DNA of 64,000 bases, from NCBI GenBank assembly GCA_024741835.1, contig JAENRP010000022.1, positions 1 through 64,000 on the forward strand, in the 5' to 3' direction. A program made the translations under genes and the position numbers. Below are positions 26,192 to 60,480 of this stretch, piece by piece. Under the pieces are notes generated by a model. That model saw only the letters and a list, made by a program, of their open reading frames with translations. It made no database searches and had not been told where the DNA came from. This DNA comes from Diplocarpon mali. Taxonomy: Eukaryota; Ascomycota; Leotiomycetes; Helotiales; Drepanopezizaceae. How positions within the stretch are numbered: the stretch's first letter is position 1; every line of letters begins with the position of its first letter.

Positions 26192-27453
26192 ATTTGTGGC
26201 GATGTATATCCACCGGCTAGCATTTGCTTTTTCTGTAGAGTAGCAAGCATAGCAAAGCATTGAGGTGTTAATGTCTTTTCAGTTTGACTTTTCTTTTGGC
26301 ATTTTTGATAGAATTTGTCTCAAGCCTAGCTACCGAGTCAACTCTTTACCTTCAGATTCTGTCAAGACGTTTGTCTATTTCACTACAGACTTAGGCATCG
26401 CCCCTGGTCCGATGGCCTCGGCAAAATTCATGCATGGTGTAGCCACCAGGAAAATTTTCTAGCGCTTTTAATGGTACGCACGTTAATTTTTGAGGCCAGT
26501 AACCGCTTCCAAGGCATAAGCATGCATAATTGTTTGCAGGGTGTTTGTGCTAGATTTGGGTTGGGAGGAAGGGGCTTTGTCCAGCAAATTTCAGGGTCCG
26601 GTTTGTCAATCTGGCACGTAGATCTGATATTGAGTCATGAGCAAGGGCCATGACTATTCCATTAAGCATGCGAAAGCACCATTCAAATCATTCCGCAGGA
26701 GAGATGGCTTGATTTCGAAGACTTTGCGTGCACCGGCCTCGCTTTGACTCACGTAGTGTTCGGAACAGCTTTCTGCACCATAACCCTAAACATACATCTG
26801 CTACCGCACAGACATGGCTGGTATCATCTCTATGAACTCACCATCTTCTAACCTGACTCTCTTTCGCTTAAATTCATGTTTGTTTTATCAGAACGATCTT
26901 TGCCGTGGGTTGGTCGATTTCGCTCGGCAACCGAGTCGCGCGTGAGCCTCAATCGTAAGCTGTTGGAGGCTGTTACATCGATCCAACCGCTCAGTGCGTG
27001 ATTGGCGCTGCCGCTCTGCGACTGGCTCGCACAGAATATGCCTTCCTAGCTGTCAATATCTCCGGCAAGCCTAAACACGGCAATGTACTCACAACATCTA
27101 AATATACTCGAGGAAAAGCCACTCCTCTGCATGTTTAGACGGCAATATCTCGTTACGCGTCGTTGCCTTTTCTGAAAGATCTGCATCCACACGGGCTCGT
27201 TTGGGGCGGCAACCGGAAGTATGCAACGCTCGAAGTTCAGATGATACTCGAGGCGATCCACACCCGCAATGTATAAGGGCCCTCGATACATTCCGTACTC
27301 CACTGTTCATTCTCTTTTTCCTTTCCATCACAGAATCAACTCATTCTTACAGGACTTGACGTCTCAGCAGCTGGTCTCTTCGTTCTTTTCAGCTCAGCTT
27401 AACCAGACGCTCCAACTTTTCGGTTTCTACCAACTACCAACTACACATCCAAG
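26192..27453. other. intergenic, upstream of the repeat-protein gene
   Basis: About 1.26 kb after SLA1. No coding region is supported. The sequence just before 27454 (pyrimidine-rich, then CACATCCAAG before the ATG) looks like a leader of the secreted repeat-protein gene. Confidence 0.5.
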
Positions 27454-29073
27454 ATGCGTGGGTCAGCCTTCTTTACCTACGCGCTGGTCGCACTTAGCGC
27501 TGGAGTCATCGCCACTCCGAGCGAGAAGTTCGAGGAGAGAGATAGCCTAGTTCTCGCCGAGAGAGACGGAGCTGGCAACAACGGGGGCTTCTTCCAGCGT
27601 CGACAAGAGGCTCGTGCTGCGTCAGTCTAAATTCGTATTCTGAACTAGTTTCAGTACTGACGAAGATATAGCGCGGCATCAGGACCGGCTAAGGCTAAGC
27701 CTACCAAAGGGGCTGCTGCTTCCAAGGCAGCTCGCGCTGCGTAGGTTTATACTTGAATTCCAAGCTAGTTTTAATACTAACAAGAATATAGCGCGGCATC
27801 AGGGCCGGCTAAGGCTAAGCCTACCAAGGGGGCTGCTGCTTCTAAGGCGGCTCGTGCTGCGTAGGTTTATACTTGAATTCCAAGCTAGTTTTAATACTAA
27901 TAAGAATATAGTGCGGCATCAGGACCAGCTAAGGCCAAACCTACTAAAGAATCTGGTGCTGCGTAAGTTTATATTTGAATTCCCAACCTATTTTGGTATT
28001 AATAAGAGTATAGCGCGCCATCAGGACCTGCCAAAGCCAAGCCTACTAAGGAGGTTTCTGCCCCTATCGAGGCTCGCGCTGCGTGAGTTTACATTCGAAT
28101 TTTGAGCTGGCTTGAGTCCTAAAGAAGATATAGCGCGGCATCAGGACCGGCTAAGGCTAAGCCTACCAAGGGGGCTGCTGCTTCTAAGGCGGCTCGCGCT
28201 GCGTAGGTTTATACTTGAATTCCAAGCTAGTTTTAATACTAATAAGAATATAGCGCGGCATCAGGACCGGCTAAGGCTAAGCCTACCAAGGGGGCTGCTG
28301 CTTCTAAGGCGGCTCGCGCTGCGTAAGTTCATATATGAATTCTAAGCTAGTTCCAATACTAATAAGAATATAGTGCGGCATCAGGACCAGCTAAGGCCAA
28401 ACCTACCAAAGAATCAGGTGCTGCGTAAGTTTATATTTGAATTCCCAACCTATTTTAGTGTTGATAAGAATACAGCGCCGCATCAGGACCTGCTAAGGCC
28501 AAGCCTACCAAAGAGGCTCGTGCTGCGTAAGTCCGAGACAGACCAATCTGTGAAGCAGTCTTGCGCACAAATACTGACTGACATGTTTACAGAGCTGCTG
28601 CTAGTGGTGCGAAGCCAGCCAAGACATCAGCGGTTGCCTCTAAGAGATCAGAAGCACGTGCCGCGTAAGTGTATCTCCCGCAGGTAGTTTCGGACAAGCA
28701 TTTACTGACAAACTACAGAGCGCAATCTGCAGCACCTAAGAAGCCTGCTCCGTAAGCCCTGCAACCGTCCTGGTATTTGGTGTCAAAGAGCCTGACAAAT
28801 GTACAGCGCTGCCCCGAGTGGAGCCAAGCCAGCCAGAGCTGAAGCTCGTGCCGCGTAGGTCTATCATCTGCTTGCATTCTTACTGTTGAGGTGATAGAAG
28901 CTAATAAATATAAAGCGCCGCCTCGGGAGCCGCTTCAAAGAAGCCAGCTGTATCAAAGAGAGCTGCTACCGCCAGCGGCAAGAAGGCAGCGTTAGTTCTT
29001 CCTACATAGTTGATGTTGAGTGGATGCATGCTTACATATCAATAGACCCTCTGCCGTTGCCAGACGGGCATAG
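27454..29073 (+). CDS. Secreted Lys/Ala-rich repeat protein encoded by tandem exon-intron units
   Basis: I read 14 exons: 27454-27620, 27672-27740, 27792-27860, 27912-27962, 28014-28082, 28134-28202, 28254-28322, 28374-28424, 28476-28526, 28593-28664, 28719-28751, 28807-28854, 28916-28990 and 29046-29073. They give 306 residues. All 13 introns are phase 2, GT..AG, mostly 51 nt, many with TACTAAC/TACTAAT branch sites. Exon 1 encodes a signal peptide (MRGSAFFTYALVALSAGVIA, probable cut before TPSEKF) and a propeptide-like part with a dibasic site (GGFFQRRQEAR). Exons 2-9 each encode a 17- or 23-residue repeat with core SGPAKAKPTK ending ESGAA or ARAA. Exons 10-13 are diverged Lys/Ala/Pro versions with KR sites (SKRSEAR, SKRAATASGKK). 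There is almost no aromatic or Cys residue after exon 1. Function is unknown; the mature part is strongly basic and resembles histone H1 tails in composition. It could be a cell-wall or antimicrobial protein, an effector or a processed peptide precursor. Confidence 0.8.
27672..28592 (+). repeat. Tandem array of eight exon+intron units, order A-A-B-C twice
   Basis: Unit starts are 27672, 27792, 27912, 28014, 28134, 28254, 28374 and 28476. A units are 120 bp (69-nt exon, 51-nt intron). B units are 102 bp (51+51) with a diagnostic intron segment GAATTCCCAACCTATTTT. The first C unit is 120 bp; the second has lost an 18-nt piece of its exon and is followed by a diverged 66-nt intron. Introns are as conserved as exons, and exons at 28134 and 28254 are identical. 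This points to recent segmental duplication of whole exon-intron units. Confidence 0.9.
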
Positions 29074-33948: not shown

Positions 33949-34277
33949 GTGCGTTGTTCATGGCAAAGATTGTAGGTGAGGTGAAGAGCTCCAGTTTATA
34001 GATTTCGTATGATGAGTCAGAAGCCGGGGAAATCGTGGTTAGTTAATGCGTAGCGCCGGATATCATCGAAGATGACGCGCCTGCGTGGAAGGGAGAACTG
34101 ATTAATAAATAACCTTTGTCGGCTTGCTTCCGCTCCAGATCAAGCTTTCACATTTAGCGAACCTCCAAACCTCAGATCATCCGTTCCTTTGTCTCCAGTT
34201 CTGTCCTTTCTGTCCCATCTGTCCCAGACCGTTGCGCCTCCCAGCCGCCACAAGGTCACAGGCAATTCGCAGCAACC
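33949..34277. promoter_or_regulatory. bidirectional promoter region, amidohydrolase/COG8
   Basis: A 329-bp interval between two divergent start codons. It must hold both promoters; no specific factor site was recognised. Confidence 0.5.
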
Positions 34278-35705
34278 ATGGTAGATCCATTGTACGAGCT
34301 CCTGATCCCGTACTTCAACGCGCCCTCACCACGACCGACGCCGTCCTTGAAAGACCCGACAACCACGGGCTACCTGACGCGACTCACAACCCTCCCCCTC
34401 TCATCCCTCAGCAGCAGCGAGCCGCAATCGCTCTCACAAACCACGAATTCCCTCCTCTCCTCCCTCCAGGCCCTCTCGAAACGCTCCCACAAATCCATCA
34501 TCGACTCCTCCACCCACCTGTCAACGCTGAGCAGTACGCTCCCAGGTCTCGCTCAATCCACTGCCTCCCTGCGCGACGCGCTCCCCAAACTCGACGATGC
34601 CGCCATACGCTTCAGCGAAACCTACAACACGCGCGCCGAAAATGCACTGCTAGACCGTCGCCGGAAGGCCCTCCTGCTCTCCCGCAACATCGACCGGCTG
34701 TCTGACATTCTCGACCTGCCTACCCTCCTTTCCTCCGCAATCTCAACCTCCAATGCCGCGACCACGTCCACATCCGCCTCCAACACCACCCTCAACTATG
34801 CGTCTGCGCTGGATCTCAACTCGCATATCAGACGTCTTCATGGCTTATATCCTGACTCGGCGCTCATCTCGAGCGTGGAGAAGCAGGCGGAGGAAGCGAT
34901 GCAAGACATGGCCACGAACCTCATCGGCAGCCTGAAAACCAACTCCCTAAAACTAGCAAGCGCCATGCGTACCATCTCGTGGCTACGCCGGGTAGCCCCC
35001 GAACTCGATCCCGCACCGGCGTCCTCGCTCCCCACCGCAAGCCTCCATCACAGCGGCGCCGCAAGCCGCGAAGGCAGTCTCGGCGCCCTGTTCCTCGTAT
35101 GCCGGCTCGCGAACCTGCAGCAGATGCTCTCCGCGCTCGAACCCCTGCGGGAACTGGCCGACCAGGAAACCATACGGCTGCAGGGCGCTGCTGGCGGCAC
35201 GCCGACCACGAAGGAGAGGAGTAAATGGGAAGGCGGGCAGCAGACCGAGCGCTACCTCAAGCGCTACATTGAGATCTTCCGCGAGCAGAGCTTCGCTATC
35301 ATCTCCATGTTCCGCAGCATCTTCCCCTCCTCTCACGACGACACTACGGCCATCCTCAAAACCCTCGGCCGGGATGGGCACACGAAGGAGGATCCGCTGC
35401 TGCCGCTGCCGAGCTCGCTCGGCACGTTTCCGCTGCAGCTGGTGGGGATGCTGGAAGAAACCCTGAAGAGGTACCTGCCGAACGTGAGAGACCGCAGTAG
35501 TCGGGATAGCTTGCTCACGCAGGTCCTGTACTGTGCGGGGAGTCTGGGTCGGTTGGGGGGTGATTTTGGGGTGGTGCTTGCGTTTCTCGGGGAGGGTGCA
35601 GGGGATGATGGGGATGAGGAAGAAGAGGAGTGGGTGGAGGTGATACGAAGACATCGGGTCCTCGCTGGGCGGTTGGAATCCATGGTTGGGGCGAAGGATG
35701 GGTAG
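34278..35705 (+). CDS. COG8: Conserved oligomeric Golgi complex subunit 8 (Dor1 family)
   Basis: A single exon of 475 residues from ATG 34278 (MVDPLYELLIPYF). The N-terminal half carries the Dor1/COG8 pattern: GYLTRLTTLPLSSL, KSIIDSSTHLSTLSSTLPGL, a coiled-coil region with RAENALLDRRRKALLLSRN and the segment IDRLSDILDLPTLL. Further on are LDLNSHIRRLHGLYPDSALI, EAMQDMATNLIGSLKTNSLKL and YLKRYIEIFREQSFAIISMF. COG8 is in lobe B of the tethering complex for retrograde intra-Golgi vesicles. It ends with an acidic run and VLAGRLESMVGAKDG. Third codon positions are strongly G/C, unlike the genes to its left. The length is at the short end for filamentous fungi. Confidence 0.9.
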   Translation: MVDPLYELLIPYFNAPSPRPTPSLKDPTTTGYLTRLTTLPLSSLSSSEPQSLSQTTNSLLSSLQALSKRSHKSIIDSSTHLSTLSSTLPGLAQSTASLRDALPKLDDAAIRFSETYNTRAENALLDRRRKALLLSRNIDRLSDILDLPTLLSSAISTSNAATTSTSASNTTLNYASALDLNSHIRRLHGLYPDSALISSVEKQAEEAMQDMATNLIGSLKTNSLKLASAMRTISWLRRVAPELDPAPASSLPTASLHHSGAASREGSLGALFLVCRLANLQQMLSALEPLRELADQETIRLQGAAGGTPTTKERSKWEGGQQTERYLKRYIEIFREQSFAIISMFRSIFPSSHDDTTAILKTLGRDGHTKEDPLLPLPSSLGTFPLQLVGMLEETLKRYLPNVRDRSSRDSLLTQVLYCAGSLGRLGGDFGVVLAFLGEGAGDDGDEEEEEWVEVIRRHRVLAGRLESMVGAKDG

Positions 35706-35924
35706 ACGTGTCTTGCGTCCCGGCGACGAGCAGCGGAGGTGCTTGCATAGGAGTATTTGGAATAGACACAGTCTTTGACCCCATGGCGGTCCCTCCCGGA
35801 AGTGCCACCTGAATATTCTCTACGCCGTCGACCCGTCGATGCCCGGCACACAGGTAGACAAGAGTGCGGCCAACCTCGGGGCCTCCCTGCCTCCTTCCCA
35901 AGCCGAGCCCCACGGGCGCCGAGC

Positions 35925-36000
35925 CTTCGAGTGCCGAGTGCCGAGTGCCGAGTCCCGAGTCTCGTATGCCGAGTCCCGAGTCCCGCGTCCCGTCCCGAGC
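35925..36000 (+). repeat. CCGAGT-type microsatellite
   Basis: Imperfect 6-7-bp repeats of CCGAGTG/CCGAGTC over about 75 bp, open in several frames and producing spurious frames on both strands. Confidence 0.75.
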
Positions 36001-36480
36001 CGAGCCCCGCCGAGCCGAAACACCAGCGCCCCGTCTCCCGCTAGCTACGGGCAGAGTCACGGGGCCGTGTCGGTCGGCGCGCGAGTGCGGGTCCGAGGAT
36101 ATAGGGGAGGATGGAGGGGAGGATGTAGGGGAGAGGCAGGTCTGGCTATTGCCGTCCCTCTCTTCTCTCTCCTGATGCCTCTTTTCGAACACCCCCCCTC
36201 CCCCTCCGTTTGCTCGTGCGGGGTTCGGGGTTGGAGTGTGGTGGAGTGTGGGGTCTTTTGGGGTCTTTTGGGGTCTTTGTCTTTTTTTCTGGTTGTTGTT
36301 CTTCTGCAAGGATGACTCCACTGTCCGAGATCTGTTCGGGATCTGGGATCCAGGGTTGCTAGGGCGCATGGCATTATCTAGCCTCCCCGGACCCGAGAGC
36401 TTGTCGCAGAGTCCTCGCGCAAGAGAGTGCTCGCTTACCGCTTTCTATGGATATTTCGAGACACTGTTGTATCCCACTCT

Positions 36481-36552
36481 TGTATCCACTATTGTACCTC
36501 CTATTATATACACGATTGTATCCACGACTGTATCCACTATTGTATCCACCAT
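36481..36552 (+). repeat. 12-bp minisatellite, six copies
   Basis: Six contiguous 12-mers related to TGTATCCACTAT, three of them differing at only one or two bases from it, the others more diverged. Because 12 is a multiple of three the tract is open in all plus frames. Confidence 0.85.
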
Positions 36553-36785
36553 CATATTCCCCACACTTGCCCCCAAGCACGTGCATGGGTGCTACCACGC
36601 CGCCTCATCACCGGCTGATAGTGCGGGGATCCAGAGACGTCGTCCATCTGGCCTCCATCAGGCGACTACCGACTGGTAGACCAGGAGATCCCCTCAGATG
36701 GGCTGCCCCTCACGTCTGTCCCACCGCCTTCCAGATGCAAACCCTCCCGATCCATCTCTGCGACCCATGCCCGCGCGCGAGCCTG

Positions 36786-38090
36786 CTACGGAGAGCTCGT
36801 CCGAGCAGGCGCGGCACGTACATGCTCACGCGTTTTCGTCTCGCTGGACTCTGTCTGGCAGATACCACTGCTGACTGGACTCAAACTTGCGTGCTCCGCC
36901 CGTGATCCCGGGGCCTTGGCCTTCATGAAGGGGAGGTGGCCCTGGGTCTCCTTGTACCGCATCAGCACGAAGCCGACGATGACGGCGATCCAGTAGCAGT
37001 TGTACGAGATGACGGAGCCGTAGGTCGCCGAATTTTGCCAGCCAAAGACGGCGTTGAAGATGCCCCAGCCGCCGCCACCATTCAGCTCGGGGTTGCCGTA
37101 CTGGGCCGTGTTAATTCCCGTCCAAGGGGGGGGGGAGCGTGGTGCGGGCCGACTCACATTGACGTGCCACACGCTCTGGTCGATGTCGTAGGACCCGGGA
37201 CCGGAGCCGACTTCTGCGGCGTCCCCGCCGACTGCGTCGTTCCAGTTCTGGGCCTGGAAGAACCAGATGGCCTTGGAGAAGAGACCCGCGGCGACGAGGT
37301 AGAGGAAGCAGGTGGAGACGACCAGGAAGAACTGGAGCTTGGAACCTGCGCCCACGCTGGGTCTGGTCAGCGCCGGGGTTGCCAGGTGGGACCTGGGCAC
37401 CTACTGGTAGATGAGGAGCCCGACGACGGCCCCGGCCAGGATGCCGACGACCACGGGCAGCGGGACGGCCTTCGCCGGGGCCGAGAAAGACACGCCGGCG
37501 ATGAAGATGACGGCTTCCATGCCCTCCCGGAGCACGGTGATGAAGGGCAGCCAGGCCATGAAGTAGCGGGTGGCCCACTGCTTCCACCGGCCCTTGGAGA
37601 CGGAGCCCTCCTCGACGGCCTTGGCAATCTTGACGCGCCACTTCTCCTGCATCTTGGAGACGCGGAGCAGGGCCGCGCCGACGACGGAGATGATGAGCGC
37701 GGCGAGCAGGCCGAAGGCGCCCTCCCACGTGTATTCGGCCGAGGCCCACGAGTTCTTGCCGGAGCCGTAGAAGGCGCCGATGACACCGGCGCCGATGATG
37801 AGGGTCACCAGCAGACCGGCGGCGGTCCCGGACCAGACCTGGGGAGGGGGGGGAGAGGGAGGTTAGTCTGGAAAAGAGAGAGAGAGTTGGCCGTCCGAGG
37901 TGGGGGAGTAAATGTGTGGCGATCATCGACCTACCTGGCGCACGAGGCTCTTGTACACGGTCTTGTCCCCGTGGGGGGCGTCGAGGGTCTGTTTGGCAAA
38001 TGCGAGCAGGATGGCGACGATGATGGCGACCTCGATGGTCTCCCGGAAGACGATGAAGAAGACGGGGACGGCGAAGACGTTGGCGGTCAT
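36786..38090 (-). CDS. FTR1: High-affinity plasma-membrane iron permease Ftr1
   Basis: Exons 38090-37935, 37838-37405, 37356-37158 and 37100-36786 give 367 residues. It starts [20 protein letters not shown]; the first iron-binding RExxE motif is RETIE (16-20) and the second is REGME (156-160), inside [20 protein letters not shown]. Seven hydrophobic spans are expected. [15 protein letters not shown] and [20 protein letters not shown] are typical family segments. Near the end [20 protein letters not shown] precedes the last span ([16 protein letters not shown]). Ftr1 passes Fe3+ made by the Fet3 ferroxidase into the cytosol; FET3 is divergently placed 2.3 kb away. Codon third positions are almost all G/C. 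Introns contain homopolymer G/C runs. Confidence 0.94.
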
Positions 38091-39746: not shown

Positions 39747-40316
39747 NNNNNNNNNNNNNNNNNNNNNNNNNNNNNNNNNNNNNNNNNNNNNNNNNNNNNN
39801 NNNNNNNNNNNNNNNNNNNNNNNNNNNNNNNNNNNNNNNNNNNNNNNNNNNNNNNNNNNNNNNNNNNNNNNNNNNNNNNNNNNNNNNNNNNNNNNNNNNN
39901 NNNNNNNNNNNNNNNNNNNNNNNNNNNNNNNNNNNNNNNNNNNNNNNNNNNNNNNNNNNNNNNNNNNNNNNNNNNNNNNNNNNNNNNNNNNNNNNNNNNN
40001 NNNNNNNNNNNNNNNNNNNNNNNNNNNNNNNNNNNNNNNNNNNNNNNNNNNNNNNNNNNNNNNNNNNNNNNNNNNNNNNNNNNNNNNNNNNNNNNNNNNN
40101 NNNNNNNNNNNNNNNNNNNNNNNNNNNNNNNNNNNNNNNNNNNNNNNNNNNNNNNNNNNNNNNNNNNNNNNNNNNNNNNNNNNNNNNNNNNNNNNNNNNN
40201 NNNNNNNNNNNNNNNNNNNNNNNNNNNNNNNNNNNNNNNNNNNNNNNNNNNNNNNNNNNNNNNNNNNNNNNNNNNNNNNNNNNNNNNNNNNNNNNNNNNN
40301 NNNNNNNNNNNNNNNN
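39747..40316. other. assembly gap (570 N)
   Basis: A run of undetermined bases inside the FTR1/FET3 intergenic region; the true content and length are unknown. Confidence 0.99.
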
Positions 40317-43360: not shown

Positions 43361-46222
43361 GCGAGACAACACCAGTCCGTGCCTGCCTCAGCTATACTAT
43401 ACCACACAACAACCAAGCTGGCTTCTCAACAGAACCCTCCCTCGAACAACACCTCACAAGCAAACTCAGAGTTAATTGCCTTATTGGCAGACGTACTCAG
43501 AGACGATCACACGCTATTGCCCATTCTGGAACCTCACATCTGTGTTCCAGATTCACAGACGCCCAACGGCACTGCGACGGATCAGCTACCAGACCCCCTC
43601 ACAAGCCAGCGGTCATTATCATCATCGTCCTCGTCGTCGACCCGTTCGCCAACCAACACAAGTGAGTCGTTAAGCTCAGAACTTCGTCAAGCACTTTCAA
43701 TTGAAGCAACTTCCACCGCACCGACGTCAGCTCATCCAAGGCAACTCGAGTTTGACATCATGTCTCCCAACGATCCCCTCATACCATCAATAGGTATTAC
43801 ACTCCCTAAGTATGAGTTGTCAGGTCGATTCACGGGTGCTGAAGGCAATGCTTCCAGATGGCTTAACCGCCTGCAGTACGACTTCAAGAGTGCCGGTTAT
43901 GCAACACCAGACCCAGAGATGTTCTTCAAGGCCATTGACATCTTATTCGAAGGCCAGGCAGCTGAGTGGCTAGATTCCAGCGTCGAGTTCCGAGCTATCA
44001 TTAACGAGAAGGAGAATGCCACCGCTGATCACGTCGCCAATTTTAAACAGGCATTAAAGGCCGAGTATCCTACAAAGGTGGCCGATCATACTGAAAATAA
44101 TATCCAGTATGATATTAAAAACCTTGCCCAGAAGTCTGATGAATCGCTTGCAGCGTACTATCAGAGAACCACCCACCTGCTTCGCCGCGCATACGGCAAA
44201 GATGCTAGTCGATTAACAACCAGTCCATCACTCAGTTCCATCGAGCAGGTCGTCCTAGATAGCATTATCGCGGCATTTATCAAGGGCATTCATAATAATG
44301 AGTTACGAGTGGCTGCTCTTTCCAAGTCAGCATTATCGTCTGGCGCATTATAGAAAGCCCTAGACGTTGTCAAAGATACTCAGAACACACTAAACACAAC
44401 TCGTGAAATGGAACAGCGTCGCTAGGAAAAGCTCGAGACCGAACAGTTGCGGCAGTTGTGCCACAAGCAATACGGCATATCTGCTTCTGCGGTCTTATCG
44501 CTGCTAAATGCTAGGAAGCCTATGGTCCCGGTGAACCAAAAGTCATCGTCGTACGCACCAAGATCGACCCCCCCTAGGGAGTGGCACGGAAACACCCCTC
44601 TGCCTTCCACCACGACTAACCGGAACAGTAATCAGAATCAGAACGGTAACCAGGCTGGCCGTGGTGCTCTGCAGGAAACTAATAATGCTCAGAACATTCA
44701 GCCTGCGAGGACAAACCCTGACTAGCGTGCCCGTCAGAATGCAAGAGCCCACGCCGTCCCGCCTCGTTCACAATCGCTCCACCCGGTCATAAATAGTTCC
44801 CAGACATATGACTCCAAGAAGGATAGCGTTTTATATATACGCTGCAGTGATTTCGGCCACAAGGCCACTGAGTGTACTAGAAACGAACTTGCTGCATGGG
44901 AGAAGGCATACTTGCGACAGGCCATCTGGGGAGGTAATATTAGGTCATACCTCGCTAATATCACTGGTTCTAGCAAATGGAACCAGAGCCCAGCCTCGAT
45001 AACCGAAGGGAGCTACGAGGAATCGTCCTCGTCCTCGTCAAGCCAGCCGAAGGAGGCTACCGGCAATCAGGTGTCATTTGATAAGTATGTCAAGGCGTTG
45101 GCCTCTAACAACTGTTCCTTGGGTACATTATCGTTAGACTCCAAGATGGCCGGCCGTCCTAGGAAGCGACCACGTATATCGATTGAAGAACTGATTAACT
45201 CCAGTGATAACAAACCAGTACCAGCGCCATCTGACAAGACATCCAACAGGAGGACTGACAAGCCGGAAAAAGAGAGGGCTAATAAGGAGGATAGGGCAAC
45301 TGAGGAGCAGAAGGGAGCTCGAAAAAAGGGCAAGCGTGCCGTCCGCTATCTCAAAGAGATAGTTGCGCGTAAGGGAATGGGTCCAATGAATTACCAGGAA
45401 CTGGCAGACAGAATCAAGGTACCGCTAAGTCTGACCGAGTTCTTCCAAGTTTCGCCAGAAGGCAGCAAAGAATTCCGACGCCTGTCGACCCGCAGAAACC
45501 ACAAGTTATCGAAGCATAAGCCAGAGAAGTCGGTACACTTTTCGGCTAAGGCGAAAGTTTCTAATGATGCCCGGAGGTCAAAATCAACTACTACAGTCCC
45601 CTTGCTATCGGCTGAGAAGAAAGCCTTTCAGATCGACTGTTTTATTAAGATGCTAGGCAAAGATGGAAAACCAGTTGAGATTGCGTTGCCAACCCACCTC
45701 ACCCAAGTCGACCAAGGATCTGATATAAACGTCATATCTCACGCTCTAGTTAGGAAGCTAAGACTCAAGCCAATTCCACTATCAGAGAGGGGCTTTAGCG
45801 GACTGACAATAAATACCGCGGATGGTAGCGAGTCTGAGCTCACACACTAGGTTGAATTTGAAGTTGGTACGCATAGAATCTAGCGTAAGGATAAGGCATT
45901 TGTACGGCCTTTCGATGATGACCTGCATTTGCTACTTAGTCTGCCATAGCTATGGAAGGTGGACGGGGCGATCGATATCCGAAACTCACGAACTACAATA
46001 GGCGACTCATCGTACGGTGAGAAAAAGGTAGTCATTAAAGGTCCTAAATTCGTACCATCGAAACACCATAAGTTGTTCCTTCACCCAGCCGGCGTGCCAG
46101 ATCCAGATCTGGTAACTCCGAAGAAACCACCTATCGAAAAGTCGGGGAAACAAGAGGTGGAAACCAGCTCTAGTGAAAGCGAGAGTAAGGAAACAGATTC
46201 ATCCACCGACTCGGGAAACTAG
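43361..46222 (+). pseudogene. retrotransposon gag-protease frame, interrupted
   Basis: Open in one frame from 43361 but interrupted by TAG at 44351, 44423, 44723, 45848, 45881 and 45947, then ended by TAG 46220. There is no ATG before 43760, so the original start may be lost. The capsid-like part includes SGRFTGAEGNASRWLNRLQ and ALKAEYPTKVADHTENN. A zinc knuckle near 44834-44875 keeps CSDFGHKATEC but has Tyr (TAT) in place of the first Cys. The protease region near 45690-45850 has QVDQGSDINVISHALVRKL, with DQG where retropepsins usually have D-S/T-G. Each internal stop stands where Gln (CAR) would be one transition away. Confidence 0.85.
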
Positions 46223-49200
46223 ATGGAGATAATCGACCTGAGATCGTCACTAAAAGCATCAACAGCACGCAGTCGACTGAGGAGATCCAACCGCACTATG
46301 TGCTAAACAATAATGAGAAGAAAATCAACCAGCACTTGCAAGATGGCAGTACCATCGCTATCAAGATTGAAGCAGATGAACCCGTAGGACCAACATTTAA
46401 TGCACTGCAAGCGTCAATTGAGGAAACGTATAACTACGAGGAATCCGTCGCCCCTCGACTGACCAAGAAGAATCGCAGAAGAATAGTTGAGCCACAAATC
46501 CGCAGCCTACTAGGCTTAAGTGCGAGGTTGAATGCGCTAAGTGCAAGTCCAAACTCATTTGCCGACCCTAGGGAGTCGTCGTACTATAGGGAGCTGGACA
46601 GCGAGACTGGACCATTTCCAGACCATGTGGCAACACCATACCCAACCCATCGACGCCCGTGCCAACGAACTCTATCAGATGAATCAGATCCGATCATTAA
46701 CGAGTGGTTTCAAACGATCGGAACCAAAATTGGCAATCTGACGGACGAACAACAGGGACAACTGAAGAGGCTATTGTATACATATCGAGACCTGGATGCG
46801 AAGGAGTTGCAGAACCTACCTCCAACTGATCTGTATACCCATAGAGTCCGCTTGAAAGAGGGCACCAAACCTCACTCAGTGGCCAGGCAGAAACGATGGC
46901 CAGCCGCAAAGGAGTACTGGCTCCAACGACATATTAATGAAGGACTAAACTGCGGCTTCTATAAACGCACAATAGTAGCAAATGGCCAACTATCCGATTG
47001 GAACGCGCAAGCTGTCGTCGTCGATAAGGTAGAGAACCCTCAGCCGTAGGATGAGCCCCGGATCACATTCAATTACCGCAATGTGATTGAGCAAATGCCA
47101 GGTTGCTATATGGAGCTATCGTCGAAATTGCATAACTACTTAGGCCACCCTTCGTATAAGTTGTTCCTAAAATTCGACCTTAAGAACGCGTATTGGTGCG
47201 TGCCAGTTCACCCGGCAGACCGCTATTACTTTACGTTCACTATATCTGGTATCGGCCAACTTCAGCAAACTAGAATGCCATAAGGGTCGATGACCTCTGG
47301 CTATAGCATGACTGAACTGATGTACATTATGCTAGGCTAAATACCACCATCAGAACTAGGCCAGGACAACTTTGCTGGTCGATCATCGGTGATCGTTGCT
47401 CCGGACGAGGACTCTCTTCCTATATGCGGCTTCTATGTTGACGACATCTTTGGAGGGTGTCAAGATTTTAAGGAGGGCTATCGCTTTATGGCAGACGAAT
47501 TGTTCCTAAGAGTAGCATGGGCCCGCATGCGGCTGTCCTTTAAAAAGATGGAGTTGTTTATGGAGGAAATTGTTGCGCTAGGTGTCACTTATAAGTCCGG
47601 AGGTCTAATCTCAACCAAACCAGAACGATTGAACAAAATCCGAACTTGGCCGGTGCCTAAGTCTGCTACTCAGGTACGCGAGTTCGTTAGTGCTATTAGC
47701 ATCACCCGGCGATTCGTAAAGAACTTCGCAGAGATCAAACTACTACTATCGCGACTGATTGGTAATGTGGATTGGAGATAAGGGAAGGCTGAGCAAGTGT
47801 CTTTTGAGATACTGCGTCAGAAGTGCTTAGATGTCCTCGATATGCATGGCTGGGATGGTGGAAGGTCCGCCGTCTACTTCTATTCTAATGCAAGTAAGCA
47901 TGGAGCCGGCTGCTGCGTTACTCAACGACGAAACGGTGTGAAGGTGGCCATTCTATATAACGCTTTTACATTCACAAAGTCACAACGCAACTACAGAACG
48001 TATAAGCGCGAATTGTATGCTATCGTGGAGTTTAGCCGCAAGTTCGATTACATATTTCGCAGATCGATCACTACAACTGTGTTCACTAACCACTAACCCT
48101 TGACTTACTTTCTAAAGTCGTCAAGTATTAAGGGTATCTACGCGAGATAGGCCTCGGAGCTACGCCAGCTAAACCTTAAGATACGTTGGATTCCGGGTTC
48201 TAGGAACAAAGTGGCTGATGCCCTCTCAAGAACCATCTTCCCTAATCCAGGTAGAGAATCCGACGACTACCTTAACGACTTTGGCCATCTTGACGTGTCC
48301 GGCGCTAAGCCAGAGTGGGTCTAGAAGGATAGGAAGAATAGCTATAAAGAGCTCATCAGACAAGTTGGAAATACACTCCACAATGATGAATTGCGCAGTA
48401 TGATACTAGGGGAGTCTCCAGCTGCCTTACCGGATATATCGTCCTTTATAGCCAGACTACGCCAAGCTGATCCTATATGTATCGAACGATCAAAATCCAA
48501 ACACTTCCCAACCATCTTGCGATCTTTTGCATCAGAGGCAGTTCGGCGAAGCCACCCACCACAAGCTATATACCGCATATGCGAATGGTACTCGGAAGTC
48601 GCTAGCTTCCTTATCTCATCGGAGTATCCAAATTAGTATATTACAAGAACTCAGAGAGCTGCCTTTCATAGAAAACTCGATCGATATAACACTAATGCCA
48701 AAGGCGTATTATACGTTCAAATCCGAGGTGCAACAAAACGCTGTATCCTTCCTAGTGAGGTATCAACCGTTTTGATGGCTGCTTATGACAATGGGGGTCA
48801 CTTCTAGGCTGCGATTACTATACGCAAAATGATTGATGTCTACTGGCCTAGCATGGCGAAGGACACAAGAGACTATATACTTGGATGTCTACGATATGCC
48901 CAATATGGTACTGCTCGGCGTAACCAGACTCTTACTAAGGTTACAGTCTCTAGTATTATAGAGTTGCTTAGTGCTAATTGGATTAGTCCCTTTCCAGATT
49001 TCAGTCGACCTGATAAAGTTCGTTGGATCCTTCTAGTTATCGACTACTTCTCCCGGTATGCTTGGGCCCGAGCATTTGATACCAATGATTCGGCTGCAGT
49101 CATTTCCTTCTTATCCGACATATTTAGCGTATATGGCGTTCCAGTCGGTATATATACTGATCCGGGACCTCATTTTGGCGCAGAAGTTGTCAAGTGGGCA

Positions 49201-49977
49201 GGAGAACAAGGCATAGTCTGGACTACATCACCCTCTAGAGCAAAGAAAGCCACCGGTATAGTCGAGAAAGCGGTAGATGTGTTTCAACGAGTCCTTAAAA
49301 AGACGTGCCCTGCGCCACAACTCTGGCCCGAATGGATCAATAGAGCGCTATACGAGTTCAATAATCGCTATATTGCTCACCTAGGCTACAGCCCTTTCGA
49401 GATCATGCTTGGTTTTGATAGCTCAGATATGGTCAGCCAATAGTTTCCAGCATTCCGCCGGCAGTCCTTAGCTGCGCTTATCAACGATTCATATGACGAG
49501 CTGGAAAGTGCCCTACCGGATAGTGAGGACCATGCCAATCTGGTGGTCGATTATATAGTCAAGAGGTAGGAGATCCGAGAAACTGTCGACGCTAGATCTG
49601 ATCTTTCTCGCCAACGCACAAAGGAACGCCATGACCTAGGAGTTCACCCGGATAAAGCTCTAATTCCAGGACAGTTGGTTATGCTATTTGATGAGAAACA
49701 GTCAGGCAAGAAGTTGCGTCCTGCTTGGCGTAGGCCTTTTGTTATTGTCGGCCATGCTAGTAAGATAGGGAAATCGTATACTCTCCGCCAAATTGATGGC
49801 TCTAGTATACGTGGCCATTTTTACGGTGATCATCTAAAGGCGTTCCGACTACGGGAAGGCTACCTGGTTACATCGAACGAACAGGAGCTTCCGGTATTCC
49901 AGAATATTCGACTCGGTAACGCGGCGTTTAAACTGCCAAAGGCAGTACGTACGATTGCTAGCGCCTATCATATTTGA
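46189..49977 (+). pseudogene. retrotransposon RT-RNase H-integrase frame, interrupted
   Basis: This frame is -1 relative to gag-protease, entered near 46213-46219. It is interrupted by TAG at 47047, 48148, 48322, 48634, 48805, 49441 and 49567 and by TAA at 47281, 47338, 47779 and 48094. It ends at TGA 49975. Reverse transcriptase shows FLKFDLKNAYWCVPVHP and FYVDDIFGG. RNase H shows FYSNASKHGAGCCVTQR and YKRELYAIVEFSRKF. Integrase shows WILLVIDYFSRYAWARAF, YTDPGPHFGAEVV and a later Glu in TGIVEKAVDVFQ, a plausible DDE triad. The integrase zinc finger has Tyr at the expected first His (48784) and last Cys (48895). Catalytic motifs are otherwise preserved. Confidence 0.87.
46213..46219 (+). other. 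candidate -1 ribosomal frameshift heptamer G GGA AAC
   Basis: GGGAAAC lies in register with the gag-protease frame (GGA 46214-46216, AAC 46217-46219) and is followed at once by TAG 46220. Slipping one base back gives GGG AAA and enters the RT frame exactly, which stays open to 47046. X-XXY-YYZ heptamers of this form are established -1 sites in retroelements. No clear downstream pseudoknot was found by eye. Confidence 0.6.
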
Positions 49978-50232
49978 ACCTCCAGAGACTCTGTCATCTG
50001 TAAGGTGCCGTCGAGTAGAAAATGGAGGGAACTATAAGTGGCTTCTTGCTTGTTTTCACGTATTAAAACGGTGTCTATATTAGAGCTCTAACATACCTGG
50101 TCTAGGGCAGAGCGCAGGTTTTGACCGGTCTAGTAGCCTTTGCTTATTTTATTATATAGCTGTCTTCTTGCTAGAGTGGTAGGACATCTGGCACTGTATC
50201 ACTCAGGGGGCTTCGTGCGTGCCATGGGGAGT

Positions 50233-50367
50233 AAACACCTTCCGGAATGGAAAGGGTGGTATTAGTCAGCACCTGGGGTGCCTCAGGCACCTAGATGTAC
50301 TATAAATATCTTCCCTCGGAGGTTACTCCTCCGAGTCTAATACAACTCCCTGTCACACCAGTTATTT
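50233..50367 (+). repeat. right LTR, 135 bp
   Basis: Identical to the left LTR. Preceded by a short purine stretch (ATGGGGAGT) that could serve as the polypurine tract. Confidence 0.95.
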
Positions 50368-50372
50368 GTGGG
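50368..50372 (+). repeat. target-site duplication GTGGG (right)
   Basis: Right copy of the duplicated insertion site; see 42819-42823. Confidence 0.9.
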
Positions 50373-50930
50373 TGCTCATGAAGTGGCGCATTCACACCTG
50401 GCATCATGAGCGGACGGGTCGGGCTCCCGCGGGACTGCGTGCCTGCTTGGTCGCGGCTCGCCTCTGCTGATCTGCCCTCCCGACATGTTGCATGTAATTT
50501 TTCAGGAGATGTTGTAATATGTAATATAAGCCCCTGGGCGTGGTGTGGTGTTGCGGTCGCGAATCCGCCTTTCCGGATGCCGTGAGCTGGGTGGTCGGCG
50601 GCTCTCTCTCTACCCCTGTCCCCAGCCTCGTGCAGCCGCCGACTTGTGGAGACGCCTCGCCTTGTCCCGACGACGAGCGAGGGGCTGGCCTGGACGAACA
50701 GCCTTCACCTCTCCTCCCTCCTGCCCACCGCACCGCCGCTTCTCTCGAGCACACCATCCCGAGAGCCATCCGCCCGCCAGCTCCGACCGCGCTGCTCGGG
50801 CTCCTGCGAAGCACAATCCCGTCCCGCGGTGACGAGACGCGGGACACCCAGTCTGGTTGTATCTGGCGCTGACACTGGCACTGGCACTGGCACTGGCACT
50901 GGCACTGGCACTGGCTCGCGATCCCCTCGC
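50373..50930. other. GC-rich intergenic region upstream of the PP2C gene
   Basis: The sequence resumes after the element. Open frames extend into the PP2C gene without ATG before 50931. A CTGGCA microsatellite ends just before the start codon. Confidence 0.6.
50872..50915 (+). repeat. ACTGGC hexanucleotide microsatellite
   Basis: About seven copies of ACTGGC ending 15 bp before the PP2C ATG. It would encode a Thr-Gly run if translated, but lies upstream of the first ATG. Confidence 0.85.
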
Positions 50931-52790
50931 ATGGCACGCGCCCCCCGTCTGCTCGCCGCAGGGACACCGAGGGCCAGGCTGCCTGGGAGCGGCACTCGCG
51001 TCGTCACGATGCCGGCCTTCAGAGGGGGGCGACGGCCGTGGGGCCGGGGAGACAGCGACGGTAAGCCTCCGCCGGAACCGCGCGACGATGGTGCTCATGG
51101 CTTTTCTGCAGACCTCATCGCGACCTTCCTGCATCCGCCCCCCGCCCCGGGCCTGCGCGGGTTCCACAACTACTTCGTCACCCATCTGCCCTCCTCCTCC
51201 CTCCACCCGGACTCCCGCGCCTCGCCCGGCCCCCACCACAAGCTGCCGCGCGCTGCCTCGACTCCGCACACCCCCGGCGAGGGCCCGTCCCCCGCCGCCA
51301 TGGTCGGCCTGTCCCGCGAGATGACGGTCGTGCGCATCCCCCTCCGCAGCGCGAAGCACCACTTCGGCGTCTCGGCGGCGCGCGGCACGCGCCCGTACAA
51401 CGAGGACACCTTCCAGGCCGGCACGCTCGAGATCCCGGCCTTTGCGCGGCGCGCGCCCGTCAGCCTGAGCCGGTCGGGCAAGACGGCCAGCGCCACGTCG
51501 GCCGAGAGCGCGAGCGGGGACCCGCAGGTCTTTTACTTTGGCGTGTTCGACGGCCACGGCGGCAACGAGTGCAGCGAGTTCCTGCGGGAGGAGCTGCACG
51601 GGTACATCGAGCGGGCGGCGGGCAGCTTCGCGCTGCGGTCGAGCCTGAAGACGGGGCCGGGGCCGGGGCCGGGGCCGGGCGCCGGGGTGCCGAGTGCGGA
51701 GGCGGGGGGGGGAAGGGCGTCGGCGACGGCGAGCGCGAAGGATGCCGAGGGGCCGGCGAACGGGCCGACTCGGGATCATGGGGGGAGGCTGCTGCACCCG
51801 CGAGCGAGTCCGGCGGCCGAGCCGAACCCGCCGCCGCCGCCGAGCGAGCTGGAGCGGGCGCTGGTGGCGCGGTGGCGGGAGACGGTGGGGGGGTATTTCC
51901 GCCGCTTCCGGCCCGAGCACTTCGCTCTGCCCTCCCCGGCCGGCGAGGAGGCGCCGCGGCCCGAGAAGCCCGTCTCGGTCGAGGGCGTGCTCATGTACGC
52001 CTTCCTCCAGGCCGACCTCGACTTCGTCGCCGCCCAGGCGCAGAAACCGAGCGCGGCCCACAGCCACGACGACCGGCCCCTCAACGCCCACGACATCCTC
52101 GCCTCGCCCGCCCACCTCGCGCTCTCGGGCCACCGCATCGGGGGCCCCACCCGCTTCGTCGGCGGCTCGACGGCCTCCGTCGCCCTCATCTCCACGCCGA
52201 CGCCGACGCCCTTCTGGCACCCGGCCTCGCCGTGCACGCTCGTCGTCGCCCACGTCGGCGACACCCGGATCCTGCTCTGCGACACGGCCACCGGCCTCGC
52301 CCTCCCCGTGACCACCACCCACCACCCGAGCGCGCCGATCGAGGGCGCGCGGCTGCGCCGCTACGCGACGGCCTTCGTCACGGACTCGTTCGGCGAGGAG
52401 CGCATGTCCGGACTCGCCAACACGCGAGCCTTTGGCGACATGCGCTCGAAGCGCATCGGCGTCTCGGCGGAGCCCGAGATCCGCCGCGTCGAGCTCGCGC
52501 CGGCCGAGTTCGCGTTCCTGGCGCTCGTCTCGGACGGCGTGAGCGGCCCGCTGACGGACCAGGAGATCGTGGACGTGATCAAGGAGGCCAAGACGCCGGA
52601 GCAGGGCGCCCGCGACGTGGTGAGCTTCGCGACCGAGGTCAGCCGCGAGGGCGACAATGCGACGTGCCTGGTCGTGCGGCTGGGCGGCTGGGAGCGGCGG
52701 ATCGAGGGGGGCATGGGGAGTCTGGGGACCAAGGAGGTGAGGGATTTCCGCAAGGGGGATGCGCTGGATCCGAGGAGGGGGAGGACCTGA
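50931..52790 (+). CDS. PP2C-type protein phosphatase (Ptc6/Azr1-like)
   Basis: Exons 50931-51060 and 51112-52790 give 602 residues; the 51-nt intron preserves frame and is inferred from GTAAGC..CTGCAG. The N-terminus (MARAPRLLAAGTPRARLPG) is Arg/Ala/Leu-rich with few acidic residues and fits a mitochondrial presequence. PPM motifs in order are RPYNEDTFQAG, FYFGVFDGHGGNECSEFL, LVVAHVGDTRILLC, LANTRAFGDMRSKRIG, LALVSDGVSGPLTDQEI and EGDNATCLVVRLGGWERR. Metal-binding Asp residues sit in NEDT, FDGHGG, VSDGV and GDNAT. A Gly/Pro/Ala-rich insert (about 210-270) interrupts the fold after the DGHGG motif. Ptc6-type enzymes act on mitochondrial targets and mitophagy in yeast; the assignment here rests on resemblance. 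The high-GC sequence gives a long spurious antisense frame. Confidence 0.88.
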   Translation: MARAPRLLAAGTPRARLPGSGTRVVTMPAFRGGRRPWGRGDSDGKPPPEPRDDGAHGFSADLIATFLHPPPAPGLRGFHNYFVTHLPSSSLHPDSRASPGPHHKLPRAASTPHTPGEGPSPAAMVGLSREMTVVRIPLRSAKHHFGVSAARGTRPYNEDTFQAGTLEIPAFARRAPVSLSRSGKTASATSAESASGDPQVFYFGVFDGHGGNECSEFLREELHGYIERAAGSFALRSSLKTGPGPGPGPGAGVPSAEAGGGRASATASAKDAEGPANGPTRDHGGRLLHPRASPAAEPNPPPPPSELERALVARWRETVGGYFRRFRPEHFALPSPAGEEAPRPEKPVSVEGVLMYAFLQADLDFVAAQAQKPSAAHSHDDRPLNAHDILASPAHLALSGHRIGGPTRFVGGSTASVALISTPTPTPFWHPASPCTLVVAHVGDTRILLCDTATGLALPVTTTHHPSAPIEGARLRRYATAFVTDSFGEERMSGLANTRAFGDMRSKRIGVSAEPEIRRVELAPAEFAFLALVSDGVSGPLTDQEIVDVIKEAKTPEQGARDVVSFATEVSREGDNATCLVVRLGGWERRIEGGMGSLGTKEVRDFRKGDALDPRRGRT

Positions 52791-54572
52791 TCGTTTGTAC
52801 ATACTGGGGGGGCAAAAGCTCGGGTTCGACGCCCGTCCACGGCATGTATATCTGTTTCCAACTTCTCACCCCCCCAATCCGATATCCTCGCTTCCAAAAG
52901 GTTTCGCACTGGTTGGCTCCGTCTCTGCTGAGATGAACACCTCACCATCCGGAAGCCGCGCTCTGGCCCTCGTCGGAGGGAGTAGCTCGCGGGATATGGG
53001 GACGCGGCTCCCCGCCCCGCCGTGTCTCGCCCGGGCGCCGGCAAGCCTTCCCGACACGAAGCGCGCCAGGCGGGTCGGCAGGTCGGCGGGTCGGGTGCGA
53101 GGCCAGAGCGGCCGCGCCTTGCCTGGGCCGAGTGCCGCTCTCGCTTCGTGCCGGGCGCATCGCGGTCGGCCCGCGACCCGGCCGTGCGTGCGCCTAGCCA
53201 TCCCGACCGCGTGATCCTCGAGCTCATTCTCCATGTACACGCACCTCACTCGCCGATGTCCTTCTCCTTCTCTCCCCTCGGCCTTTCGTGCGTCTGTACC
53301 ATCCGCCGTGTTCGCCACCTCCAGAGGGCTCCGCTCCCCCGCTCCCCCGCACCTCCCTGCGCGCCTGCGCCTGCGCACTCCCTGCCCAGACGCCGCGGCA
53401 CATCGCGTGGTGGTCGGGGTGGTGGTCGGTGCTCCTGTGAGCAGCGGCAGACGGAGATGGTGGCCTAACGCGTCTCTCTCTTGTGTGGGGGGGGTAGGTA
53501 GGTGGGTTGGAGAAGAGGGAGAAGAGGGGAGGGGAGAGGAGGGGAGAGGAGGGAGAAGATGGAGAAGAGGGAGAAGAGGGAGAAGAGGGAGAAGAGGGAG
53601 AAGAGGAAGAAGAGGAAGAGAAAAAAAACCAGAGGCCTCGAGTCGGTACCGCTGCGCAGGCCGACCCATGTCCCGAGCCGACAAACAGGAAGAGGCTCGC
53701 AGCTCGTGCCGCGCCTCACTTTGCGAAAGGTCCGCCGGCAATGTTCGCGGAGCCTGGGAGAGGGGGTGTCCGCGGAGTTGCGTTTGGGGGCTGGCATTGG
53801 GGCGTGGAGCCGGACACGCGCAGGGAGAACGAGGCCTCCCTGTGCCCGGGGAGGGATATGCTAAGTGTCTGTGGACTGGACATCCCAGGTCGCCATGGAC
53901 GAGCGCAGGCTGGGCGGGCGACCCGTTGGGGGAAGGGAGGAGTCCCCGGGACAAGAGGCGAGGGACGACGCGGTCTATAGTCACGTTGACCAGATCATGC
54001 AGCTCGCTGTCCCGGCCTTGTTCTTTCCTCTGCACCGGTCACACTGCACAGGAGCATCTTGAGCATGCGCAAGCATACCCCAAAGAGCCGGAGTCAAGTG
54101 CGAAGATCCATACACTCCAACATCCACCTCAGCCTCCCCTCCGCGAGGAAACCCCCTCCAGCTCCCCCGCCACCGGCTATCCTGCACCGTCTCGCCACAG
54201 CACGTTGGAAGGGGGAGGCCCCGCAGCGCTACCTCACATCCGTCCGGGACGGGGGCGGCTTGCTAGTTTGTGGGCGAGGGGCGTACCAGAGCCCGAGCTG
54301 GAATCTGCAGATGGAGGAGGGGAGAGGAAGGAGGTCGTGAGGAAGAAGCCCTGTATCTGGGAGAGCGGGCCGTGAGCGTCGGTGCGGGGACAGAGTGTTG
54401 GGTCGGCAGTGTGGATGGCGAGGAGGGAGGCGTGTTCGCCTGTGTTTCCATGTCAATACAGAGCACGTGATTCATATTCTTCACTCCCACTCTGCTCCTC
54501 AACCAAATGCTGGTGGGAGAATCCGGACCTGGGACAGAGGTCGGGCTGGCCTACGGCGAAGATAACCCCGCT
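52791..54572. other. GC-rich intergenic region with purine repeats
   Basis: Open frames of several hundred codons exist on both strands (for example 52866-54035 minus and 53233-54375 plus). They are Arg/Pro/Gly-rich, overlap each other and have no domain. I see no gene. Confidence 0.6.
53512..53635 (+). repeat. GAGAAGAGG-type purine minisatellite
   Basis: About 120 bp of nearly pure purine, period about 9 (GAGAAGAGG and variants), giving a Glu/Gly/Lys/Arg frame artefact. Confidence 0.85.
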
Positions 54573-58885: not shown

Positions 58886-59412
58886 TTTGCCAGGATGCAG
58901 TTAGTTGTCTTGAGTCCGTGCAACGAGTTGGCGAGAGGCATGTATAGGGGGTTGATAGTACAATAATCGAAATCAAAAGCTTCAAAATTGCTTCGTCGTA
59001 TACTCAGTCTATTCGAAATTCAGTAGTCACGTCATGCAAGGGTGAAAGCAGCAGGGAGACAGAGAACCTCGGCTGTAAGATAAGATATAAGGCAGAGAAA
59101 AAGGTGACCACCACAGAAGTTCAGGGGAGAAATTTGTTTTGGATATTTCTGGATGCTGGTTAATCAGAGAGAGATCAATTCTAAGAGCGTTAATCGATGC
59201 GGGTTCCATGCAGAAAAACACTCGCATCGACTTGATCACATGAGGAGCTCGAAGGTAGTGGCGACGACAACAGACCCAAGCGAAGTGGCATGGTCAAAGC
59301 GGATCGCGTCGTCGCGTCTGCCCAACAGTGCCGAGCCAAGGGACGAGGCTGAAGATTCCACCTTCAGAATCTCAACCCGACTCCCAGCCGGAGAAAAACT
59401 TCCAGCGTTACA
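58886..59412. promoter_or_regulatory. divergent promoter region, FucU/RNH201
   Basis: A 527-bp interval between divergent starts. No specific site was recognised. Confidence 0.5.
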
Positions 59413-60480
59413 ATGGCAGATTCTCAGATGGAAGACGACGTTTCCCCCGAGACTCCCGCAGCAGAAGTGTTCATCGCGCCGTCTATCAACCCCGAGCTTC
59501 TCGTCGCCGGCGCTTCCTACACACACTTCTCCGCCGTGCCCCCCTCTCTCCTCCCAAAGCCCTCGCCCGGAACGCCCGAGAAACCAATCTCAGGCCCAGC
59601 GTGTGCCCTCGGCGTCGATGAAGCTGGACGCGGCCCTGTTCTCGGCCCCATGGTCTACGGGCTGTTCTACCTGCCGCTCCCCCTCTCCGACCCTCTCCTG
59701 CGAAATACGCACCACTTCGACGACAGCAAAGTGCTCACCCCCACCGTGCGCTCCAAACTCATGGAGAAGCTCTGCACCGCGAACACAGACCTGCACACGC
59801 AGTGCGGCTGGGCGGTGGAGGTTATGTCCGCGCGCGACATCGGCGCAAACATGATGAAGCCGGCCGCGACGTACAACCTTAACGCGCAAGCAATGGACGC
59901 GACGATCATGCTGATCGAGGGCGTGTACGCGCGCGGTGTTAATGTGAAGGAGATCTTCATCGATACGATCGGCAACCCGGCGACGTATCAGAAGAGACTT
60001 GAGCGTATATTCCCGACTGCCCAGGTGACGGTTGCGAAGAAGGCGGATAGCCTGTACCCGTGTGTGAGTGCGGCGAGTGTGTGTGCAAAGGTCACGAGGG
60101 ATGCTGCATTGGAGGTTCTGTATGAGAACTACATGCCCACGCAGGACCAGGCTGAGGGCGTGGAGATGAAGGGCACGAAGCCGGCAAAAGCTGCGGAAGA
60201 GAACTCGTGGGGCTCAGGATATCCGTCTGACGCGAGGTGCACGTCGTGGTTGAAGCGAAATATGGATCCGGTCTTTGGATGGGGGCCTGAGTGCAGGTTT
60301 AGTTGGGGCACGGCGAAGGATATGCTGGATGCCAGAGGGGTGGCGGCGAAGGTTGAATGGCCAGTTGCGGAGGATGAGGAGACGAATCGCTTGACAGATT
60401 ACTTGAGGGCGGGGAAAGAGAAAGATGTTGATGAGTTGGGAGGCTGGTTTGGGAGACCAGTTGGGACAGACGTGTTTTAG
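59413..60480 (+). CDS. RNH201: Ribonuclease H2 catalytic subunit A
   Basis: A single exon of 355 residues from MADSQMEDDVSPETPAAE. The catalytic start motif DEAGRGPVLGPMVYG (Asp69, Glu70) is followed by FDDSKVLTPTVRSKLMEKL, the second catalytic Asp region IFIDTIGNPATYQKRLERI and the family's conserved KADSLYPCVSAASVCAKVTR. GSGYPSDARCTSWLKRNMDP and FGWGPECRFSWGTAKDML complete the RNase HII fold. It cleaves RNA of RNA-DNA hybrids and single ribonucleotides in DNA, with subunits B and C, in the nucleus. The N-terminal 60 residues are a variable extension. It converges with SEY1 (438 bp between stops). Confidence 0.96.
   Translation: MADSQMEDDVSPETPAAEVFIAPSINPELLVAGASYTHFSAVPPSLLPKPSPGTPEKPISGPACALGVDEAGRGPVLGPMVYGLFYLPLPLSDPLLRNTHHFDDSKVLTPTVRSKLMEKLCTANTDLHTQCGWAVEVMSARDIGANMMKPAATYNLNAQAMDATIMLIEGVYARGVNVKEIFIDTIGNPATYQKRLERIFPTAQVTVAKKADSLYPCVSAASVCAKVTRDAALEVLYENYMPTQDQAEGVEMKGTKPAKAAEENSWGSGYPSDARCTSWLKRNMDPVFGWGPECRFSWGTAKDMLDARGVAAKVEWPVAEDEETNRLTDYLRAGKEKDVDELGGWFGRPVGTDVF

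Follow-up and report, generated by a model that had tools for sequence, protein, structure and literature searches.

Can a fungal gene lengthen its protein by copying exons together with the introns that separate them? The question is raised by a locus of Diplocarpon mali on contig JAENRP010000022.1, within the 64,000-nt stretch of DNA analyzed here (the window). A first-pass annotation of the window had described at this locus a secreted repeat protein made by tandem duplication of whole exon-intron units. The reading favored below, which is given a probability of about 0.7, is that of a real, single-copy protein gene that grew by copying first units and then a block of units, and that most likely encodes a basic protein that is secreted and disordered. 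It would represent a small fungal example of repeat-gene growth by whole exon-intron units. Synonymous sites, introns, and amino acids lend themselves here to unit-by-unit comparison, so that copying, homogenization, and selection become separable in one gene.

Gene anatomy and the intron set

The gene model was obtained by a regular-expression search for splice junctions, followed by splicing and translation, and the unit number is as assembled (Table 1). The 14 exons and the uniform phase 2 of the introns agree with the first-pass annotation, at the coordinates it stated for the gene. The spliced frame comprises 306 codons plus a stop, and the exon sizes of 69 or 51 nt that it gave for exons 2–9 are likewise confirmed (69 nt in exons 2, 3, 5, 6, and 7; 51 nt in exons 4, 8, and 9). 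Each of the 13 introns splits an Ala codon at a unit boundary, and all internal exons have lengths divisible by 3; units can therefore come or go without a frame shift. In this respect the earlier proposal, that the protein grows while each junction stays splice-competent, holds for the frame, and splicing at the 13 junctions is predicted from the sequence. Exons 2–9 encode AASGPAKAKPTK followed by a short tail, with an ARAA end in most of them. The 3′ part keeps phase 2 throughout and is still Ala/Lys-rich. The weaker parts of the gene model are located there, namely the acceptor of intron 12 (AAAG) and intron 13 with exon 14, which were placed from splice signals alone.

Table 1. Coordinates of the repeat gene and its parts in the window.
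Feature	Position	Strand	Description	Basis
Possible TATA element, TATAAG	27272..27277	+	~180 bases 5′ of ATG; CT-rich stretch downstream	read by eye
Whole coding region	27454..29073	+	14 exons, 13 phase-2 introns, 306 codons plus stop	splicing and translation
Exon 1	27454..27620	+	likely signal peptide in a hydrophobic N-terminus; then acidic stretch, RR 49-50, first EARAA	translation, hydropathy
Intron 1	27621..27671	+	51 nt; nearest is intron 5 (76%)	splicing, alignment
Exon 2	27672..27740	+	69 nt; AASGPAKAKPTKGAAASKAARAA	splicing and translation
Intron 2	27741..27791	+	51 nt	splicing, alignment
Exon 3	27792..27860	+	69 nt	splicing, alignment
Intron 3	27861..27911	+	51 nt; identical to intron 6	alignment
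Exon 4	27912..27962	+	51 nt; 96% identity with exon 8	alignment
Intron 4	27963..28013	+	51 nt; 90% identity with intron 8	alignment
Exon 5	28014..28082	+	69 nt	splicing, alignment
Intron 5	28083..28133	+	51 nt	splicing, alignment
Exon 6	28134..28202	+	69 nt; identical to exon 7	alignment
Intron 6	28203..28253	+	51 nt	splicing, alignment
Exon 7	28254..28322	+	69 nt	splicing, alignment
Intron 7	28323..28373	+	51 nt	splicing, alignment
Exon 8	28374..28424	+	51 nt	splicing, alignment
Intron 8	28425..28475	+	51 nt	splicing, alignment
Exon 9	28476..28526	+	51 nt	splicing, alignment
Diverged 3′ part	28527..29073	+	introns 9–13 of 66, 54, 55, 61, 55 nt; exons 10–14 of 72, 33, 48, 75, 28 nt	
Higher-order block A	27607..28068	+	four units, 462 nt	TRF, alignment
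Higher-order block B	28069..28530	+	414/462 identity to block A	TRF, alignment

The set of 51-nt introns consists of introns 1–8, which align without gaps and, in keeping with an origin as copies, are more alike than expected. The first-pass annotation had omitted intron 1 and had let the set run to the intron after exon 9, which is 66 nt long. Its description of the introns as near-identical is accurate for introns 2, 3, and 6 (mutually 98–100%) and less so for intron 7 (84–86% to those three); it does not extend to introns 2–8 as a whole, whose pairwise identities span 61–100% and include the 4/8 pair at 90%. Intron 1 shares 63–76% identity with introns 2–8, intron 5 being the closest. Four motifs had been reported in fixed places. 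In introns 2–8 (motifs counted by eye, GAATTC positions computed), GTRRGT is present in 7/7, GAATTC at position 15 in 6/7, ATATAG in 5/7, and TACTAAY in 4/7. Introns 9–13 (54–66 nt) are diverged and not clearly alike; when they were compared with introns 1–8, the observed scores were reached by 2, 4, 16, 1, and 2 of 1000 shuffles, respectively, figures inflated by common splice signals.

Near-identical introns are a hallmark of introners. The likeness of several introns could accordingly be attributed to mobile, introner-like elements that inserted singly between pre-existing repeats. However, all introns of the gene occupy the same codon position, and introns share their copying pattern with the adjacent exons (units 2/6 and 4/8). 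Moreover, a 63-base query composed of intron 6 and an exon start found four places in the genome, all four in this gene; the query represents one intron type, and the search skips very common words. Because the queried intron type is found in this gene only, membership in an introner family fails, and this origin is very improbable.

Coding status and growth of the array

The array looks coding and under constraint. Among the 28 pairs of exons 2–9, differences at codon positions 1, 2, and 3 number 39, 28, and 163, each of 534 compared sites. Variable columns make up 16/23 of the third positions versus 9/46 of the first and second positions (Fisher p = 1.2e-4). In introns 2–8, 28/51 columns are variable; third positions do not differ from this level (p = 0.31), whereas first and second positions do (p = 3.9e-4). 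Pooled pS is 0.344 and pooled pN 0.062 (pN/pS 0.18), beside a mean intron difference of 0.246; the exon pairs are non-independent, and these substitution figures are thus descriptive. The frame stays open in 2/20000 base shuffles of the spliced sequence, a crude estimate given non-independent repeats. Since the spliced +1 frame contains one stop only and is open over most of its length, openness of the frame alone is weak evidence, and it is the third-position pattern that picks the coding frame.

These data also bear on the idea that the locus is a noncoding tandem repeat, or a decayed gene, that merely looks spliced. With unit lengths of 120 and 102 nt, both divisible by 3, open frames come about easily in such an array, and a homologue was not found among annotated proteins. 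On the other hand, the excess of third-position changes in the spliced frame, the pN/pS value given above, and the splice ends kept in 13 introns, the diverged ones included, speak against this idea and leave the noncoding or decayed state improbable. An unspliced frame that stays open for 153 codons but has no ATG (27644-28102, + strand) spans exons and introns of the first units, as a result of unit lengths divisible by 3. Each third position of the spliced frame is a second position of this unspliced frame, whose changes would consequently be mostly amino-acid changes.

That the duplicated unit is an exon plus its intron, as first suggested, is borne out by the pattern shared between exon and intron copies. 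Units 4 and 8 (exon 96%, intron 90%), 2 and 6 (96%, 98%), and 3 and 7 (97%, 86%) form pairs, and introns 1 and 5 match at 76%. The array has a period of 462 nt, which is also reported by TRF and had escaped the first-pass annotation; the pairing of exons and introns fits a single copying of this four-unit block. Introns 2, 3, and 6 are more alike than one block event predicts, a sign that unequal crossing-over or conversion may have followed. Exons 6 and 7 are identical, and introns 6 and 7 share 86%.

Tests of the relation of the 3′ exons to the unit gave a mixed result. For exons 10–13, respectively, 5, 1, 0, and 0 of 1000 shuffles reached the observed score at the DNA level, and 113, 4700, 1455, and 262 of 5000 at the protein level; for the protein sequence of exon 14, the figure was 3324/5000. 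Likeness to the unit at the protein level is thus seen for exon 10 and marginally for exon 13, and is lacking for exons 11, 12, and 14. Exons 10–13 probably derive from the same ancestral unit as exons 2–9, the case being weak for exons 11 and 12 at the protein level.

The ancestral unit may have been an exon of 51–75 nt (coding for about AASG-AKxAK-...-ARAA) with a phase-2 intron at its end. Tandem copying of this exon-plus-intron unit would have come first, duplication of a whole block of four units second, and evening out of some units by unequal crossing-over or gene conversion third; this is the probable order of the copying events. Selection would have held the amino acids as synonymous and intron sites drifted. 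Because the exons are multiples of 3 and the introns are in phase 2, a break at any intron point leaves a readable gene. Comparison of strains or sister species would make unit turnover directly measurable.

Precedents, relatives, and surroundings

The first-pass annotation knew of no described fungal family with this layout. That claim is not supported, because a study of Argiope silk genes (PMC9779670) cites a fungal gene, SOWgp, as a case of homogenized introns. According to the part of that study drawn on here, introns that delineate repeat units are found in several proteins and are homogenized in some cases, for which its authors cite tenascin-X and, from Coccidioides immitis and C. posadasii, SOWgp (Johannesson 2005); they propose that introns help to homogenize coding repeats. 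In Argiope MaSp2, as in the present gene, similar-sized exons alternate with nearly identical short introns, the units are delimited by introns, and homogenization is seen (PMC9779670). This intron-delimited arrangement, with an intron in one fixed codon position at each unit boundary, is found here at 13/13 introns. In some MaSp2 genes the higher-order unit comprises two exons and two introns, compared with four units here, and MaSp2 differs further as an animal silk with larger arrays and a mean within-gene intron identity of 97.6% (PMC9779670). The Diplocarpon gene has 51-nt introns that are more diverged, and its product is a small polycation. SOWgp, as cited for homogenized introns, is similar in being a fungal surface repeat protein with concerted repeat evolution. 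The layout therefore has precedent, one of them fungal by citation, and is already known in kind; the protein itself, with no relative found, is an orphan. In SOWgp the repeats have another sequence and the unit is larger, which sets it apart. The words intron and exon are absent from the main text of one review on repeat-containing effectors.

The SP7-like effectors of Glomeromycotina, which are mycorrhizal fungi, offer another comparison, and the product could be such a host-directed effector, with secreted hydrophilic repeats that act in the plant nucleus. These proteins share with the present one a signal peptide (inferred here), imperfect hydrophilic repeats, and an intron that precedes the repeats (PMC11333574), and the basic residues of the repeats would also suit this role. 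However, the portion of that paper used here names one conserved intron, compared with one per repeat in the present gene. The motif that marks the repeat ends in this family, Y[KR]Rx[AP]x[AP] (PMC11333574), is absent because no Tyr occurs after residue 21: the sole Tyr among 306 residues lies in the N-terminal hydrophobic stretch, which makes the motif impossible. A role of the SP7 type is unlikely.

A search of annotated proteins with the spliced protein gave no match at E ≤ 0.001 among 8000 scored candidates, and the exon-1 region gave none at E ≤ 10 among 280. The collection includes proteins of Diplocarpon rosae. According to the first-pass annotation, its gene should be given up if there were no transcript and no orthologue retaining the frame in related species; the search of annotated proteins, those of D. 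rosae included, turned up no orthologue, which counts partly in that direction. The absence of annotated relatives either argues against a conserved family or means that automatic annotation misses such genes. No family or chain was matched in Pfam, NCBIfam, or PDB, and scanning the window for Rfam families and tRNAs gave no hit. Within the 49.4 Mb genome of the fungus itself, 8 of the 10 matches to the N-terminal 119 residues lie in the gene, the other two having E values of 0.22 and 0.53. An ARAA-donor pattern has 9 of its 13 sites in the gene and 4 elsewhere, the same number as in a reversed control, and the 3′ part (28527..29073) matches itself only. The gene is a single locus in the 49.4 Mb assembly, in which a second copy was not found.

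Its upstream neighbor is a gene of the Sla1 type that carries SHD1 and SAM domains, and its downstream neighbor, on the other strand, is a TLC-domain gene. A neighboring RNase H2 reading frame at 59353-60477, of which 280 residues were used, shares 92% identity with a D. rosae protein and at most 83% with the others listed; this one gene points to Diplocarpon or close kin as the origin of the window. At 43361-49974 (+), frames were recognized by eye that resemble the gag, protease/reverse transcriptase, and integrase of a Ty3-type retroelement. A run of N, which may be an assembly gap or a withheld stretch, occupies 39747-40316 and is directly followed by an open frame with multicopper oxidase domains. 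The G+C content is 0.61–0.69 at 34000-38000 and 50000-54000, and mostly ~0.5 in the rest of the window.

The predicted product

The N-terminal hydropathy maximum (2.18 over residues 11-21) points to a secreted product. It is followed by an acidic part and then by RR 49-50, where a single Kex2-type cut may perhaps occur. The chain after RR 50 has 256 residues, a pI of 11.8, and a net charge of +44.7, and consists of 42% Ala, 15% Lys, 10% Pro, and 10% Ser. Ala/Lys-rich basic chains of this kind are disordered and bind to acidic polymers with a strength that increases with the number of units. Most likely, the gene encodes a strongly basic protein rich in Ala, Lys, and Pro that is secreted and disordered. 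Each copied unit would add a site at which an acidic partner, for example pectate, cell-wall phosphate, or DNA, could bind; polycation binding made multivalent in this way is a tentative guess at the function.

The introns may have a bearing on the product as well. Retention of any one of introns 2–12 (11/13) would place a stop right after the last residue of the unit, and retained intron 1 or intron 13 would add 2 or 5 residues, respectively, before the stop. The introns could thus serve as punctuation, with regulated retention yielding a ladder of secreted proteins that end at unit boundaries. Such stops follow in part from phase 2 combined with GTRAGT-like donors and may be a by-product, and regulated use of them is a long shot; with the stops so placed, a length ladder produced by intron retention would nevertheless be testable.

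Dibasic sites invite a comparison with KEX2-processed repeat proteins (KEPs), in which secreted fungal repeats likewise occur with KR/RR sites (PMC6339444, PMC9769878). The gene might then encode a KEP precursor from which a Kex2-type protease releases many short peptides, or else a GigA- or UstA-like multicore RiPP precursor, the exons being peptide modules. A signal-like N-terminus, the repeats, and four KR/RR sites (residues 49, 239, 287, and 304) are compatible with this, and UstYa-family genes exist in the genome, with at least eight matches on contigs C85, C162, C13, and C110. The position of the sites is not. By a published rule, a KEP has three or more similar fragments delimited by KR, RR, or KK sites (PMC6339444). 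Here, all four KR/RR sites fall outside exons 2–9, as do the KK sites (253, 281, and 295), and the four main KR/RR fragments are unequal in size and are not mutual repeats. The repeats of exons 2–9 thus differ from KEX2-processed ones in having no Kex2-type dibasic site between them (PMC6339444, PMC9769878), and equally from those of GigA, the epichloecyclin precursor, which kexin sites separate in the accounts cited (PMC8982410, PMC9233826, PMC6374014). KEP membership was rejected on these grounds. A dikaritin or epichloecyclin RiPP cluster was also rejected, as a UstYa gene beside the precursor was not found: none of the eight best candidates from an intron-blind search lies on the window's contig (C22). 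There is accordingly only a slim chance that the exons are peptide modules, and a secreted polycation remains the preferred reading. Elsewhere in the genome, four UstYa-family matches fall within 4 kb of one another at C13:132618-136388, a possible RiPP or related cluster.
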